Source: Nannobrachium achirus
Lineage: Eukaryota > Chordata > Actinopteri > Myctophiformes > Myctophidae
Direction of reading: 5' to 3'
DNA length: 64,000 nt
Assembly: GCA_963921795.1 (NCBI GenBank)
Contig: OY997658.1
Span: 49,627,523 to 49,691,522, forward strand
Shown here: piece after piece, positions 7,239 through 62,900 of the stretch
Layout of the letters: each line of letters begins with the position of its first letter
How positions within the stretch are numbered: the stretch's first letter is position 1
Translations under genes and position numbers: made by a program
Notes under the pieces: model-generated
What the model saw: the letters and a program-made list of their open reading frames with translations, nothing else
Databases searched by the model: none
What the model was told of the DNA's origin: nothing

Positions 7239-7310
7239 GAAAATAGCTTATCTACAAGCTCACAACACGTCAGATTCACGACACGTTGTGAGCTTGTAGA
7301 TCAGCTCTTT
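7239..7310. repeat. GATCTACAAGC palindromic core, stand-alone copy
   Basis: Inverted arms (CTACAAGCTCACAACACGT and its complement) around a short loop, flanked by AAAATAGC-like and GCTCTTTT-like ends. It is one of about 30 copies in the window. Confidence 0.8.
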
Positions 7311-7479
7311 TCACCACGCTAAGACCTTCAGAAACGTTTGGCTTCACGATAAAAGCTTATCAGCTTGCTTTCCCAGACAGAGGCAACGTGGAAAATTCAG
7401 ATTCGATGGCATTTCACACTGCAAAAGGGTACAGGAAAGTGGTCACCTAAACCTTGTGGGCACCAATGCTACATTGGCT

Positions 7480-56900: not shown

Positions 56901-59900
56901 ATATTTTAATCTTTACAGGCCTAATGGAGAACTTCCTGGTCATCCACCAGCTGAGGTGTAACGGTGTGCTGGAGGGCATCAGGATCTGCAGAAAGGGCTT
57001 CCCCAGCAGAATCCCATATGCTGACTTCAAGCAGAGGTATCAATTCCTTTTCCCAGCACGCTTTTAGTTCCACTCCGAATAACAGGGAGGCACGCAAAAT
57101 GACCATGAACTTCTACAAAACAGGTACAAAGTACTGAATGCCAGCGCATGTCCTGAAGGCGCATTCATGGACAACAAGAAAGCCTCCGAGAAGCTGCTTG
57201 CGTCGCTTCCCGTCCCTGTTGAAGAGTACAAGTTTGGACACACCAAGGTAAACACACTGTGAACCTGGTTTAACATTATCCAGAGAGGACTAAAAGTAGT
57301 TTAGGTAGTTGTTTAGTTAGATTGTTTGTAAGATTGTGTTCAGGTTGTTTAGTTCCAGTGTTTGTAACATATTGTGTTCAGGTGTTCTTCTGTTGTTTAG
57401 TTCCAGTGTTTGTAACATTGTATTCAGTAGATGTTACGGTTGTTTAGCTACAGTGTTTGTAACATTGTATTCAGTAGATGTTACGGTTGTTTACTGTAGC
57501 TATACTATACATGGGCAACTGGCGGCCCGGGGGCCACATGCGGCCCCCACCTTCACTTAATGCGGCCCGCAGGTTAATACTGGAATAATGATATATTATT
57601 GATTTCAGCTGTTACAATTCTAAACATGACCAGCTTTAATTCCGTCAGTCCATATTAGTAACTTAATGACTAGCATAGTAGTATTAAAATGTATTTTTTT
57701 ATGTCCAATGTATTTGTATTTAGATTCATAAAGTTAACATGAGTATATAACCAAATGCGATTGAAATTAAATCAAATTGTTACATTTCAGGATTCCGATT
57801 AAAAAATAACAACAAATAATTCAGGATTCCAATTCAAAAGAAGCAAAAATAGCCGATGTACAAGCTCAAAACGCATCGCAGCGCGATGCGTTTTGAGCTT
57901 GTAGATCTGCTATTTTTGCTTCTTTTGTATGAGTTACTAGAATGACAAAGTAGGACGTAGCAATATGCAATGTGGCCCTCTGGAGTGAAGGTGGAAATAT
58001 AGTGGTCCTCGCCATCATCAAAGTTGCCCACCCCTGACAGTGTTTGTGACTTTGTGTTCAGGTGTTCTTCAAAGCTGGTCTGCTGGGTGTCCTTGAGGAG
58101 ATGCGAGATGAGAAGCTGTTCGCTCTGGTCACCATGACTCAGGCTCTCTCACGAGGTTTCCTCATGAGGAAGGAGTTTGTTAAGATGATGGAGCGGAGGT
58201 ATTTTGAAAACATCCTTTATTCAATATTTAGTGTCATTTGTAAGTTACTGTTCAGTACGATTTTGTTATAACGTCAAAACACTATAATAACAGCGTATAC
58301 TTCTTCCATCACTGTCCACACTCACGTTTTTGTTTTTTTCCACAGAGAGGCCGTCTTCACCATCCAATACAACATACGGTCGTTCATGAATGTCAAAACA
58401 TGGCCATGGATGAAGATCTACTACAAGATCAAGCCTCTCCTGCAGAGCGCTGAGATGGAGAAGGAGATGGCAAACCTGAAGGAGAACCATGAGAAGTTGG
58501 TCGCTGACCATGCCATCGTCGTGGCCAAGAAGAAGGAACTAGAGGAGAAGTTGGTGGCAATAACCCAGGAGAGGAACTCGCTCCACCTGGCTGCTTCATC
58601 AGTGAGTACACTGGACAGGCACGTGCACACATACATCAAAGTGGGCCTGCTTGAGCCCCTGCCCTTTTATCCGTCTGTAAAAAGTGCCCTCTCCAGACCT
58701 AGCCGCAAATTGCAACTCTAGATTTTTTTTAATCTGTTGAATCTAGGGTTGCAATACCTCCCATAGGCAGCCGATGCATCAAAACAGTTTTTTTTTGCTA
58801 TCTGATTGTGTTAAACAACGTCAAACTCACCAATATTCTGGCTGTATGGAAAGCTTGAAGTATCCTCTTTCTATCTGCAAAGTGTTTTTCATAAAAATCC
58901 ACCGTAGGCATGTTATGAGCTACTTTCTGTCAAGAAATCCGAGCACCCATATTGGTGAGTTCGATGTTGTTTAATACAATCACATAGCAAAAAAACTGTT
59001 TTGATGCATTGGCTGCCTATATGGGAGGTATTGCAACCCTACCCCAACCCTACTCCAGACCATGAATGCAGTTTTTTACTACGGTAAAATGCCATACCTG
59101 AAGGCAGCATTCAAGAGAATTGCCTTGTCCAAACTCTCCTGAACTTGAATGCAGCATCTTATGCTGAAAGAATTGCCCTCACTGTGTAGAAATCCATGCC
59201 GTAAGCCACATCTCCAGTATTGCTTTTTTTGTGTGTGGTATCAAGTACCGAAAATAGCAGACCTCCAAGCTCACAACGCGTTGCAGCGTGTCGCGTTGTG
59301 AGCTTGGAGGGTCTGCTATTTTCTATATTTTCACCAAAAGGCCCTTTTAGAAATGTCAGCCCTGCCTTCCTAACATTCTCTGCTTGTTCCTGACACTGGA
59401 CATTCTACCATTCGCTCCCACAGATCACAAAGCTGTGCTTTTTCACACCATGCTCCCTAAGGGTCTGTAGCCCTCCAACCAAGCATAATCTGTATAGGGT
59501 TGATGGGTTTTATAAACCCAAGGGCCCCCCCTACTGGGGACAGTGGCAAGGGATTTTCTTTAATACATTTAGTTTTCAATAAATAATAATATCCGCTCTA
59601 CATATACATTCATAGGCTAATATATGTATTTTGTCATTTCCAATATATTAGAGGTCTCTAATCTCCTATCTTTGGCCCCCCCTCACAGCAGTACAGGGCC
59701 CTTTTGATCTGAAAACCCATGTGACATAAGGTCTAATTTCGCCCCTGTCTGTAGCTCTCCAACGGGCAACTGCAAAAGCATGTATCTCTACCAGAACAAA
59801 CGCTGACATGTTTCCTCCCTCGTGTTTTTTTTCCTCTACCTTTTCCGTTGACCACAAGGGAGACGAGGCTCTGAACGACGCCGAGGAGAGGTGCGAGGGT

Positions 59901-62900
59901 CTTATTAAAAGTAAGATCCAGCTGGAGGCCAAGCTCAAAGAGACGACGGAGAGGCTGGAGGACGAGGAGGAGATCAACGCCGAGCTGACCGCCAAGAAGC
60001 GGAAGCTGGAGGATGAATGCTCTGAGCTCAAGAAGGACATCGATGACCTGGAGCTCACCTTGGCCAAAGTGGAAAAGGAGAAGCACGCCACTGAAAACAA
60101 GGTTCGCGATCACACACGCTCTCTGGGGTTTCGTCAAATTAGTAGTCGTTGTTTCTCAGGCAGAAACCTCCTTTTCGTAAATTAGCGCCCTACTTGATTG
60201 TACTACAGCAGGGTTCCCATAGGCGGCTACTGTCTGGCCCCCACCAACCCCAGTAATAATGGTGGTATAAGAGCAGCAACAACACTAGTATATCGTCCGT
60301 TCGTTTTGTATTTATCATCTAAAAAATTTACTAAACTAGTGAAAACAGCCAATCTACAAGCATAGATCTGCTGTTTTCACTAGTTTTGTGCGACGATCTT
60401 GTATGATGAAGCAGGGCTTTGCTTTACCACATTTGAAACTTGGAGATACGAGGTTTCTGCCCAACAGTGACGATATCTGAACTGTTGCTGGAGTAGCGGA
60501 AACGCCACTGTCGCCCCCTGCAATGTTGTGGCCCTCTGCTTGGTACCCTAGACATAATTCGGACCTTTGGGAAAACTATTTGGGGAACCCTGTACTACAG
60601 TGTCACACAAAAGCATCACAGATCTAGAAGCTTGTTGATCTGCGACTTTTGCTATGTTTGGACGTGAATCCTGTAATTGTTTTGGACACATAAGGTTTCA
60701 GAGACCAAGTGCAACAAGATCTATTCAGGGGGGGTCTTCAACGTTTTCAGGCCAAGGACCCCTTAACTGAGAGAGAGATGAAACAGGGACCCCCTCTACA
60801 TATTGTATAAATGCGTTATGCAGATTTCCATCAACTTGTTTGACAGCATTGTCATTAGTCTAAGTTGGATTCGTGTTTCAGACATTTAGCCACTTCAATT
60901 GTCGATACTAGTAAACTTGACCTTTCACTCTGTACTTGGTCTGCTCTCTTTTACCTCTACACCAAACCTATTTGCTGAAAATAGCCGATCTACAAGCTTA
61001 CAAGCTTGTAGATTCTACTCAGATTCTACTCAGATTAGGGATGCGAGGGTTACATTTTTTTTAATTCTTTTTAATATGTTTATTGAGTTTTTTTTATATA
61101 CAAAGACAGCTCACAACAAACAAACGCGTTCAAGTTTTTAATATATTTTTTTACCCTATCACACAAGGATTTGGTGGCCCCCCTGTAGTAACTCTGAGGA
61201 CCCCCTAGGGGTCCCGTACCACCCGTTGAAGACCCTTGATCTATTCCATGACTGTTCTGCTTATATCAGGTGAAGAACCTGATATAAGCCTTTCAGGAAG
61301 ATACATTTATTATTATTGTTATTATTATTATTATTTAGGTGAAGAACCTGACCGAGGAGATGGCCTCTCAGGATGAAGGTCTTGCTAAGCTGACCAAGGA
61401 GAAGAAGGCCCTCCAAGAGGCCCACCAGCAGACCCTGGATGACCTGCAGGCAGAGGAAGACAAAGTCAACACTCTGACCAAGGCCAAGACCAAGCTGGAG
61501 CAGCAAGTTGACGACGTGAGTTCAGAGAGTCAGTTGGGTGTTTTGACGGTAATATGTTTATTGTCGTAACAGAATAACACTGATGCTGAGCTTCAAAGCA
61601 GGTACGGCTCCTCCATACCTCCAAAACCTGATCAACCCCTACAACCCCACCCGTTCACTCAGATCAGCCAACACAGGGATGCTGACAGAACCCTCGCTAA
61701 AAACCTCAGGACAAAAATACACTCGTCCTAAACAATTTGCCCTCCTAGCCCCTAAGCTGTGGAATAAACTCCCTGTCGCACTTTGAACAACAGACTCACT
61801 CCCTAGCTTCCGCCATGGACTGAAGACTTAACTCTTCAGACTTCACCTAAACCCATAGCACTAACACTCCCCTTCCCTCAAGGACCCCACATGAAGCTAG
61901 ATAGTATTTTTAGGTTTTAGAAGTTTGATTAGGTGCGTTGTCTACCTATGTTATTATTATTTTCTCTAGATTGATATTCCTATGCATTTGTTGTATTGTT
62001 GTTGATGTACTGACATATTATCTTGATTATTGTATTGATGTATTACCAGCTTATTGTAAGTCTCTTTGGTTTAAAAGCGTCTGCTAAATGCCTAAACTGT
62101 AAACTGTAAACTGTAATAACAAGACAAATACGTTGTTGTGCAGCTGGAGGGTTCTCTGGAGCAAGAGAAGAAGCTCCGCATGGACCTGGAGAGAACCAAG
62201 AGGAAGCTGGAAGGTGATCTGAAACTGGCCCAGGAAGCCATCATGGATCTGGAGAACGACAAGCAACAGACTGACGAGAAGATGAAGAAGTAATGTGGAC
62301 CAACAATAATAATAATATTATAATAACGTTATGAAATAAAGCGCCTTTCAGACCGGGGTACTATTAACGCAGCGTTCTCGCTTGGATTGAGCACGCAAGG
62401 GAGAATTTCACAGGACCGTGCCCGCTCGCCTCTCCGCCCCTCAACTACTCTGTGCGTCTCAAATAATCGCCCGCCTCTCATTGAAAATGAACTACTAGGG
62501 CACGTCATTGCCTCCCATCTGGAAAGTGCTAAACATGGAGCTAAAAACTACCAGTAAAACATGCTGTTCTGTAGAAGGGATTTGAAGTAACTCAAATAAT
62601 GACTTCCTGTGTTCCACAGGAAGGACTTTGAAGTCAGCCAGCTTCTGAGTAAGATTGAAGATGAGCAATCGTTGGGCGCTCAGCTGCAGAAGAAGATCAA
62701 AGAACTTCAGGTATTTTTTTTCTTCTTCTTTAAAATCATAATGATAATATAATGTAGGGGTGGGCGACAGTATACAAATGAAACCAAATGGACCCGTAAG
62801 GGTCACTTTGGTTTCATTTGTATACTGTCAGAGTTAAGGACTGATTTAGACAAAATGCAGGTTTAAATGGATTCTGCAATGAATCTTATGTGTTAACAAT

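Follow-up and report, generated by a model that had tools for sequence, protein, structure and literature searches.

One palindromic core inside differently ended MITEs of Nannobrachium achirus, probably spread by nesting and trimming

Introduction

Families of miniature inverted-repeat transposable elements (MITEs) are usually defined by their ends, and their middles are taken as unrelated. How, then, did one hairpin come to lie across families that were probably moved by different transposases? The question is raised by a 64,000-nt stretch of the genome of the myctophid fish Nannobrachium achirus (assembly GCA_963921795.1, contig OY997658.1, positions 49,627,523 to 49,691,522, forward strand), here called the window, in which a short palindrome, here called the core, recurs inside elements with different ends. 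The reading preferred here, to which we give a probability of roughly 0.6, is that the core is old and of one origin, is the interior hairpin of many MITEs, was spread by nesting and trimming, and has had its arms matched by arm-to-arm copying.

On this reading, a core-bearing MITE would land inside another MITE, the nested element would be largely trimmed away with the core remaining, and the composite would be multiplied by the transposase of the outer element; the core would not move alone. The core DNA would fold back, and copying between its arms in replication or repair, as we infer, may keep the arms matched, at times inverting the three-base loop and making deletions and duplications.

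Structure and abundance of the core

The core is a palindrome of ~53 bp, or ~85 bp at most when the outer arms are counted. Its usual layout is AAAATAGC-n-GATCTACAAGCTCACAACG-C(C/G)TCGC, followed by a three-base loop and then the mirror image. The repetition noticed by an earlier, sequence-only reading of the window is real: the arm GATCTACAAGCTCACAACG is matched 35 times at ≤3 mismatches, against 0 in 100 dinucleotide shuffles, and at ≤4 mismatches, with arms grouped, there are 26 core places (16 two-armed and 10 one-armed). All 18 core positions listed in that reading show a whole or partial core.

The core density of the window is ordinary relative to the genome (1.66 Gb). A 200-kb sample, made of 20 fixed spots of 10 kb on C1–C20, holds 69 core places at ≤4 mismatches, 25 of them two-armed, or ~1 per 2.9 kb; by hand calculation, ~0.5 single-arm matches are expected by chance. 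If the 20 spots are typical, whole and partial cores number several hundred thousand genome-wide. The exact 24-base arm has 14,869 genome matches, a perfect core counting twice, against 0 for the reversed pattern.

Folded as single-stranded DNA, window positions 45089–45181 are predicted to form a single stem at −50.8 kcal/mol (shuffles −9.8, standard deviation 2.3). In a comparison of the window with Rfam at gathering thresholds, the matches listed were two U2 and two tRNA, none on the core, and a 19-base core arm has no match in IMG/VR. The U2 small nuclear RNA-like matches lie at 292–397 and 6223–6397, the tRNA-Leu at 9585–9669 and the tRNA-Glu at 10086–10158, all on the + strand.

Carriers with different ends

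Carriers were compared over 120 core places: the 26 of the window, the 69 of the 200-kb sample and 25 from loci selected by pattern (24 of 30 such loci were used and six dropped for overlap). L-numbered places are sampled genome loci outside the window; F1–F8, C6 and M denote families or units set up in this analysis. Read outward from the core, 179 flanks fell into 19 clusters of at least two, plus 49 singletons. Single-linkage clustering on ±350 bp was dropped, as neighbouring repeats merged 102 of the 120 copies, and flank-anchored comparison was used instead.

The ends of the carriers differ. F1 has TATCGTC ends with the core near its middle (255–263 bp in seven full-core copies); the ends are CAGTGGTTCTCAACC in F2, CAGGGGTCTTCAAC in F3, GGGCAACT in F6, TAGGGCATTAACGA in F7, TAGGGCATTCACC in F8 and CAGTGGTGG in C6; and F4 is a fold-back. 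Further carriers are a AGGGCTGTCAC element at L037:8467 and a TAGGGATGGGACGAT context at L045:6889. Carrier lengths run from 158 to 660 bp, with 8-bp duplications or none. All the ends named by the sequence-only reading are present (TATCGTC, TAGGGCATTAACGA, CAGTGGTGG, CAGTGGTTCTCAA, CAGGGGTCTTCAA and GGGCAACTGGCGG), and long inverted repeats spanning 48622–49311 and 55354–55863 bear out the fold-back that it described. Its claim of at least eight families sharing the core needs qualifying: the ends do differ, but the families are not all independent, those with TAGGGCATTAACGA and TAGGGCATTCACC ends holding F2.

The ends of hAT elements begin with CAG or TAG, and those of F2, F3, F8 and C6 match this start. 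Among elements with both ends recognised, exact 8-bp target duplications flank 1 of 5 in F2, 5 of 13 in F3 and 2 of 3 in F8; seven of eight bases agree in five further F3 elements and in both C6 elements. None of 14 F1 elements has an 8-bp duplication (best, 6 of 8 bases), and the single F7 element with both ends found matches at 3 of 8. In these counts two rows under F2, belonging to other elements, were dropped and one twice-listed element was counted once; a few of the elements counted, some in F1 among them, have outer flanks in common and so are not all independent. Because F1 is without the duplications seen in F2, F3 and F8, different types of transposase probably move the carriers; judged from duplication type, there are probably at least two kinds.

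Some F1 copies have common outer flanks (L034:4011 with window 53897 and 23213; L012 with window 46048), which means that F1 in turn occupies constant positions within larger, unnamed repeats.

The core-bearing features of the window, with one core-free comparison element, are as follows.

7249..7302, + strand: core with two arms, found by arm search; carrier not recognised
12137..12553, + strand: hAT MITE with F3 ends, another interior and no core; comparison element with an exact 8-bp duplication, ATCTAGGC
18326..18550, + strand: C6 hAT-type MITE (CAGTGGTGG), left part; core 18498–18550 at its inner end
19091..19353, + strand: F1 MITE with TATCGTC ends; core 19209–19261
23120..23265, + strand: F1 MITE, single side; core 23213–23265, loop inverted (GGT)
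23879..24403, + strand: inverted-repeat element; degraded core 24106–24138
24663..24751, + strand: old CAGTGGTGG-type surroundings; core 24709–24751, arm TTAACCACTT
28502..28917, + strand: hAT-like MITE with CAGTGGTTCTCAAAGTGGGG end; core 28638–28690
44102..44303, + strand: M-type unit, limits TTAACCACTT and AAGTGGTTAA; core 44210–44246
44468..44669, − strand: CAGTGGTGG hAT-type MITE; half core 44468–44486
44987..45460, + strand: F7 MITE (TAGGGCATTAACGA end) with trimmed F2 interior; core 45109–45161; right end worn, limit approximate
45930..46066, + strand: F1 MITE, single side, with half core
47353..47716, − strand: F8 MITE (TAGGGCATTCACC end) with F2 left end; half core 47353–47371; left limit is that of the core, not the element end
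48654..49279, + strand: F7 MITE with F2 pieces; core 48973–49025
49644..50029, + strand: F4-type copy; cores 49644–49677 and 50011–50029, with a CAGTGGT-type end between them
51601..51863, − strand: F1 MITE; core 51693–51745
52225..52544, + strand: F3 hAT-type MITE with CAGGGGTCTTCAA ends; core ~52395–52447, left arm worn
53809..54067, + strand: F1 MITE; core 53897–53949
55354..55863, + strand: F4 fold-back; cores 55387–55439 and 55790–55830
57513..58036, + strand: F6 element from GGGCAACTGGCGG motif to AGTTGCCCACCCCTG end; core 57855–57907
59260..59312, + strand: F5-type core with variant arms GACCTCCAAG and CTTGGAGG
60729..61238, + strand: F3 hAT-type MITE; half core 60987–61005

A few places have an unusual arrangement. 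At L044:5908–6110, three half cores stand in tandem with a unit of ~90 bp, a small satellite that includes the core arm. A carrier-free core at L048:3789 is flanked on each side by a 24-bp direct repeat, GTTGAAACCACGCCCACTCGTTAA, and resembles an insertion with a long duplication. At L004:1472, another, approximately matched sequence forms the outer arms of the core (GGGACAGA.. / ..TCTGTCCC), and no carrier is recognised. The window also holds a large fold-back at 33979–34631, with 151-bp arms that are 99% complementary and more inverted repeats nested inside; it has no arm match at ≤3 mismatches.

A probable single ancestral core in differing surroundings

The core is marked by its own asymmetry. 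Immediately outside GATC the two arms usually fail to pair, with C on one side and T on the other; by this mismatch 21 of 39 full cores can be oriented, the remaining 18 being not orientable. The loop reads A-N-C in the same sense in 16 of the 21 (AGC 8, ACC 4, ATC 3, AAC 1), while the other five comprise AAT (1), three reversed loops (GGT, GGT, GAT) and TGT (1). This combination of loop and mismatch occurs in carriers of F1, F3, F5, F6, F7 and F8. Unless the cores share a common descent, such agreement is difficult to account for, and it points to one ancestral core.

Did the carriers as a whole descend with it, as descendants of one palindromic MITE so diverged that the core alone is still recognisable? 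The same asymmetry marks a single ancestor, old relatives of F1 carry the core too, an M-type arm with AAGTGGTTAA is common to several hAT-type contexts, and two single copies, one in the F2/F8 group and one in the F3 group, resemble each other outside the core. Several results stand against such descent. With the first 12 bases set aside, all 12 comparisons between consensus flanks of F1, F2 and F3 stayed within 2000 shuffles, at least 181 of which scored as high in every case. None of the 14 F1 elements shares the 8-bp duplications of F2, F3 and F8, and composites with two sets of ends are observed. In a wider table (37 flanks, 60 shuffles per pair), high scores mostly join parts of a single family or of the M group, and F3 ends also enclose a core-free interior, that of the comparison element listed above. 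Outside the core, no flank alignment links the three main families, so the carriers are not one element with deletions; the alignment of all carriers along their lengths, named by the sequence-only reading as its refutation, is not seen. Descent of all carriers from one MITE is accordingly rated as improbable.

Transfer of the core, probably by nesting

A transfer route absent from the sequence-only reading, nesting followed by trimming, can be read directly in F7 and F8. In the F2 group (18 core copies), four F7 copies enclose F2 interior without F2 ends: L011, L028 and window 45109 and 48973. Three F8 copies (L036:9228, window 47353 and L040:5215) carry F2 sequence to ~30 bp past the core, and two of them keep the F2 left end, L040:5215 being more worn. 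F7 and F8, with their TAGGGCATTAACGA and TAGGGCATTCACC ends, thus carry the core because F2 sits inside them. These copies read as insertions of one element into another that lost sequence by deletion and were afterwards amplified by way of the outer ends.

An exchange of halves between families had been considered for L028 and window 45109, each with an F2 half and another half, and was rejected when reading the copies showed nesting with deletion. Of the proposal in the sequence-only reading that the core was swapped between MITEs by recombination or template switching, the part that stands is the fit of template switching to the evolution of the palindrome itself; a swap of halves between families was not demonstrated.

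The M unit gives a second series. In F3, GGTTCAAGTGG-TTAA is reached on both sides of the core in many copies, and similarity ends at or near TTAA at L006 (on one side, TTAA being missing on the other), L045:8521 and window 44210, 24709 and 28638. The AAGTGGTTAA motif lies 22–52 bases past the core arm at 14,004 genome places, against 0 for the reversed control. It is likely that a TTAA-bounded M unit is nested in several hAT-type MITEs, F3 included. One search for the empty TTAA site of M in F3 gave 37 places at 2–3 mismatches, 0 at 0–1 mismatches and 1 in the control; five of these 37 matches to the joined F3 flank pattern fall within ~1 Mb (G000 C7:70.66–71.71 Mb).

In F6, the nested element is likely a relative of F1: on the stronger side, two comparisons of F6 with old F1 relatives had 0 of 2000 shuffles as high. 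The other carriers would have received the core by nesting as well.

The core as a mobile unit of its own

Core-free copies bear on whether the core moves alone. F1 without the core, with 2–32 bases between the flank anchors, occurs at 181 places; among the ~100 matches listed, the junctions are of many kinds, and most of them fall where a few bases match. The most frequent clean form, TTTAAACTACTTTTG, makes up 8 of these ~100, and a repeated ACTA would explain it too. In F2, 147 places have 0–30 bases left, against 1132 with 70–100. The 100 residual lengths listed cover the range 0–30; the most frequent are 29 (17) and 9 (14), which may represent small subfamilies. No fixed junction or constant empty site for the core was found in F1 and F2, the two families examined. 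At the core edge, an arm is still recognisable at ≤2 mismatches in 15 of 20 (F1a), 14 of 19 (F1b), 11 of 16 (F2a) and 7 of 11 (F2b), fractions that are biased upward because the families were defined from core-bearing copies.

These results weigh on the proposal that the core is a tiny transposon, an ~80–90-bp palindrome resembling human MADE1, inserted separately into each carrier. Such a unit would suit the TA on both sides of the matched arms in F1 and at L037:8467, the TTAA-bounded M unit in several unrelated contexts and the few cores without a visible carrier (window 7249, L004:1472). The many junctions of the listed F1 and F2 core-free copies, none of them constant, speak against it, as do the bases at which symmetry ends, which differ between families. 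A specific form, a TA-duplicating mini-transposon modelled on F1, where TA stands next to GTGAAAACAGC, was rejected, since it does not suit the surroundings of the core in F2, F3 and F6 and since the F1 deletions listed do not share a constant junction. The tiny mobile unit offered as one option by the sequence-only reading is therefore not upheld in F1 and F2, and a separately inserted transposon is considered fairly unlikely.

Evolution of the palindrome

The arms were examined in an alignment of 39 full cores, 15 of them from loci selected through an exact arm, with 38 mirror pairs, in which 89.7% of the cells are paired. Both-sided changes occur in 20 of the 38 pairs; shuffles average 11.3, and 0 of 500 reach 20. 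Covariation scores 0.208, compared with 0.103 in shuffles and 0.027–0.069 when partners are slid by 1–3 columns; both controls are imperfect, since relatedness inflates the shuffle control and the choice of palindromes favours the slid-partner control. Further pair types are less telling (41 vs 36.1 shuffled, 12 of 500 as high).

Matched changes also distinguish families: F1 has CACAC for CTCAC, F2 CATGC for CAAGC, F5 CTCC/GGAG near the outer end of the arm, and F6 CTCAAAACGCATCGC. The matched bases beyond AAAATAGC and the bases where symmetry ends likewise differ by family. In F1, with the same 47 flank and arm bases before the loop and six after it, the loop is ACC at 3384 places and GGT at 1748, so that about one-third are inverted. 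Counts made with a shorter flank (ACC 4710, GGT 2390) are superseded, as that flank, AAACTAGTG, is in some F1 copies present on the opposite side as well (2677 places with A). For the same reason, a test of whether the mismatched base stays with the F1 flank was abandoned and the longer flank used. Over-long F1 cores occur at 230 places in a search with a gap of 95–125, which exceeds the intact core and leaves intact full-size copies outside the count; many of the ~90 strings listed, each shown to at most 80 letters, repeat pieces of the arms.

Template switching at hairpins leaves paired changes, stem extension and inverted loops (PMC8794818, in the part of that paper drawn on here). Judged from the aligned copies, template switching probably shaped the core, and selection on structure may have contributed too.

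Selection enters two further proposals. In the first, akin to the third option of the sequence-only reading, selection would act on the hairpin as a cis-acting element that raises the amplification of its carrier MITEs, composites that keep it being the winners. The abundance of the core across carriers, its retention after the trimming of nested elements in F7 and F8 and the covariation of its arms would all suit this, and the authors of the coral CMITE study suggested this too of a conserved interior (PMC2872659, part of the text). However, sampling starts from the core, so that composites which lost it go largely unseen, and template switching can yield covariation and symmetry without selection; we hold this proposal to be improbable. 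The second goes further, making the core a general amplification hairpin that is captured by nesting, raises copy number under unrelated transposases and drives new MITE families, and is unlikely. Any benefit of the core to its carriers is thus hypothetical.

Weighing nesting and arm copying

Several observations count against spread by nesting with arm-to-arm copying, or limit its reach. Beyond the core, L036:9228 (F2/F8 group) and L038:4576 (F3) are alike, with 0 of 2000 shuffles as high, which may reflect an older link between the two groups; the pair is a pick of many, and three related comparisons gave 19, 63 and 157 of 2000. On its other side, F6 exceeds shuffles by a weak margin in the comparisons with old F1 relatives (4 and 68 of 2000 as high). 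Shared outer flanks show that some copies are not independent (L036:2937 with L045:3903; L026 with L029). The analysis turned up no carrier that was cleanly empty and had an exact junction, and for the first entry of the core into F1, F2 and the M unit nesting is what we infer. As to the arms, the mismatch next to GATC is kept in most cores (paired in 12 of 39), so that arm-to-arm copying is incomplete, and the inverted loops could be a few events copied many times.

With these points included, old common origin, nesting and arm copying keep the probability given at the outset. The origin of new MITE families becomes testable here, as nesting and trimming are traceable in sequence, and so does the effect of an interior hairpin on MITE success.

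Comparison with known systems

Abundant short inverted-repeat MITEs of teleosts that can form hairpins, such as Angel, were reportedly described by Izsvak et al. in 1999, who are said to have suggested a fold-back mechanism of amplification.

In open-licence literature on the core sequence and on shared MITE interiors, no paper was recognised as describing the core, and three core strings were absent from the text. Shared interiors with different ends are known from before. The CMITEs of the coral Acropora have differing terminal repeats around one conserved interior whose origin is given as unknown in the part of the paper available, and, like the present carriers, they include tandem forms and a new element made by CMITE insertion (PMC2872659). 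They differ in being ~100 bp long, TTAA-flanked and piggyBac-like, whereas the present carriers measure 158–660 bp and have 8-bp duplications or none; their interior of 75 bases is not called a palindrome in that part of the text, while the part shared here is a near-perfect hairpin (PMC2872659). What is new is that the core reaches across transposon types and is so abundant, together with the signs of nesting and the evidence from covariation and loop inversion.

MER6, a MITE with a SINE (short interspersed element) V domain, resembles the core in that a short domain has spread inside another mobile element; unlike the core, it is one composite family with a SINE domain, and the available part of the source mentions no hairpin (PMC6887750). 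MADE1, a palindromic mariner-related MITE and the source of miR-548, has 37-bp arms around 6 bp and thus a hairpin of a size like that of the core, but is itself the transposable unit, whereas the core has no fixed junction in F1 and F2 (PMC1784062, in part).

The closest parallel for the palindrome itself is the template-switch hairpin, for which paired stem changes, stem extension and inverted loops are predicted, all of them present in the core (PMC8794818, in part). In RNA genes, paired changes together with loop inversion are extremely rare in the part of that study drawn on here, whereas the inverted loop of the core is found in thousands of copies. Thousands of near-identical copies with either loop orientation offer ample natural material for the study of template switching at DNA hairpins.

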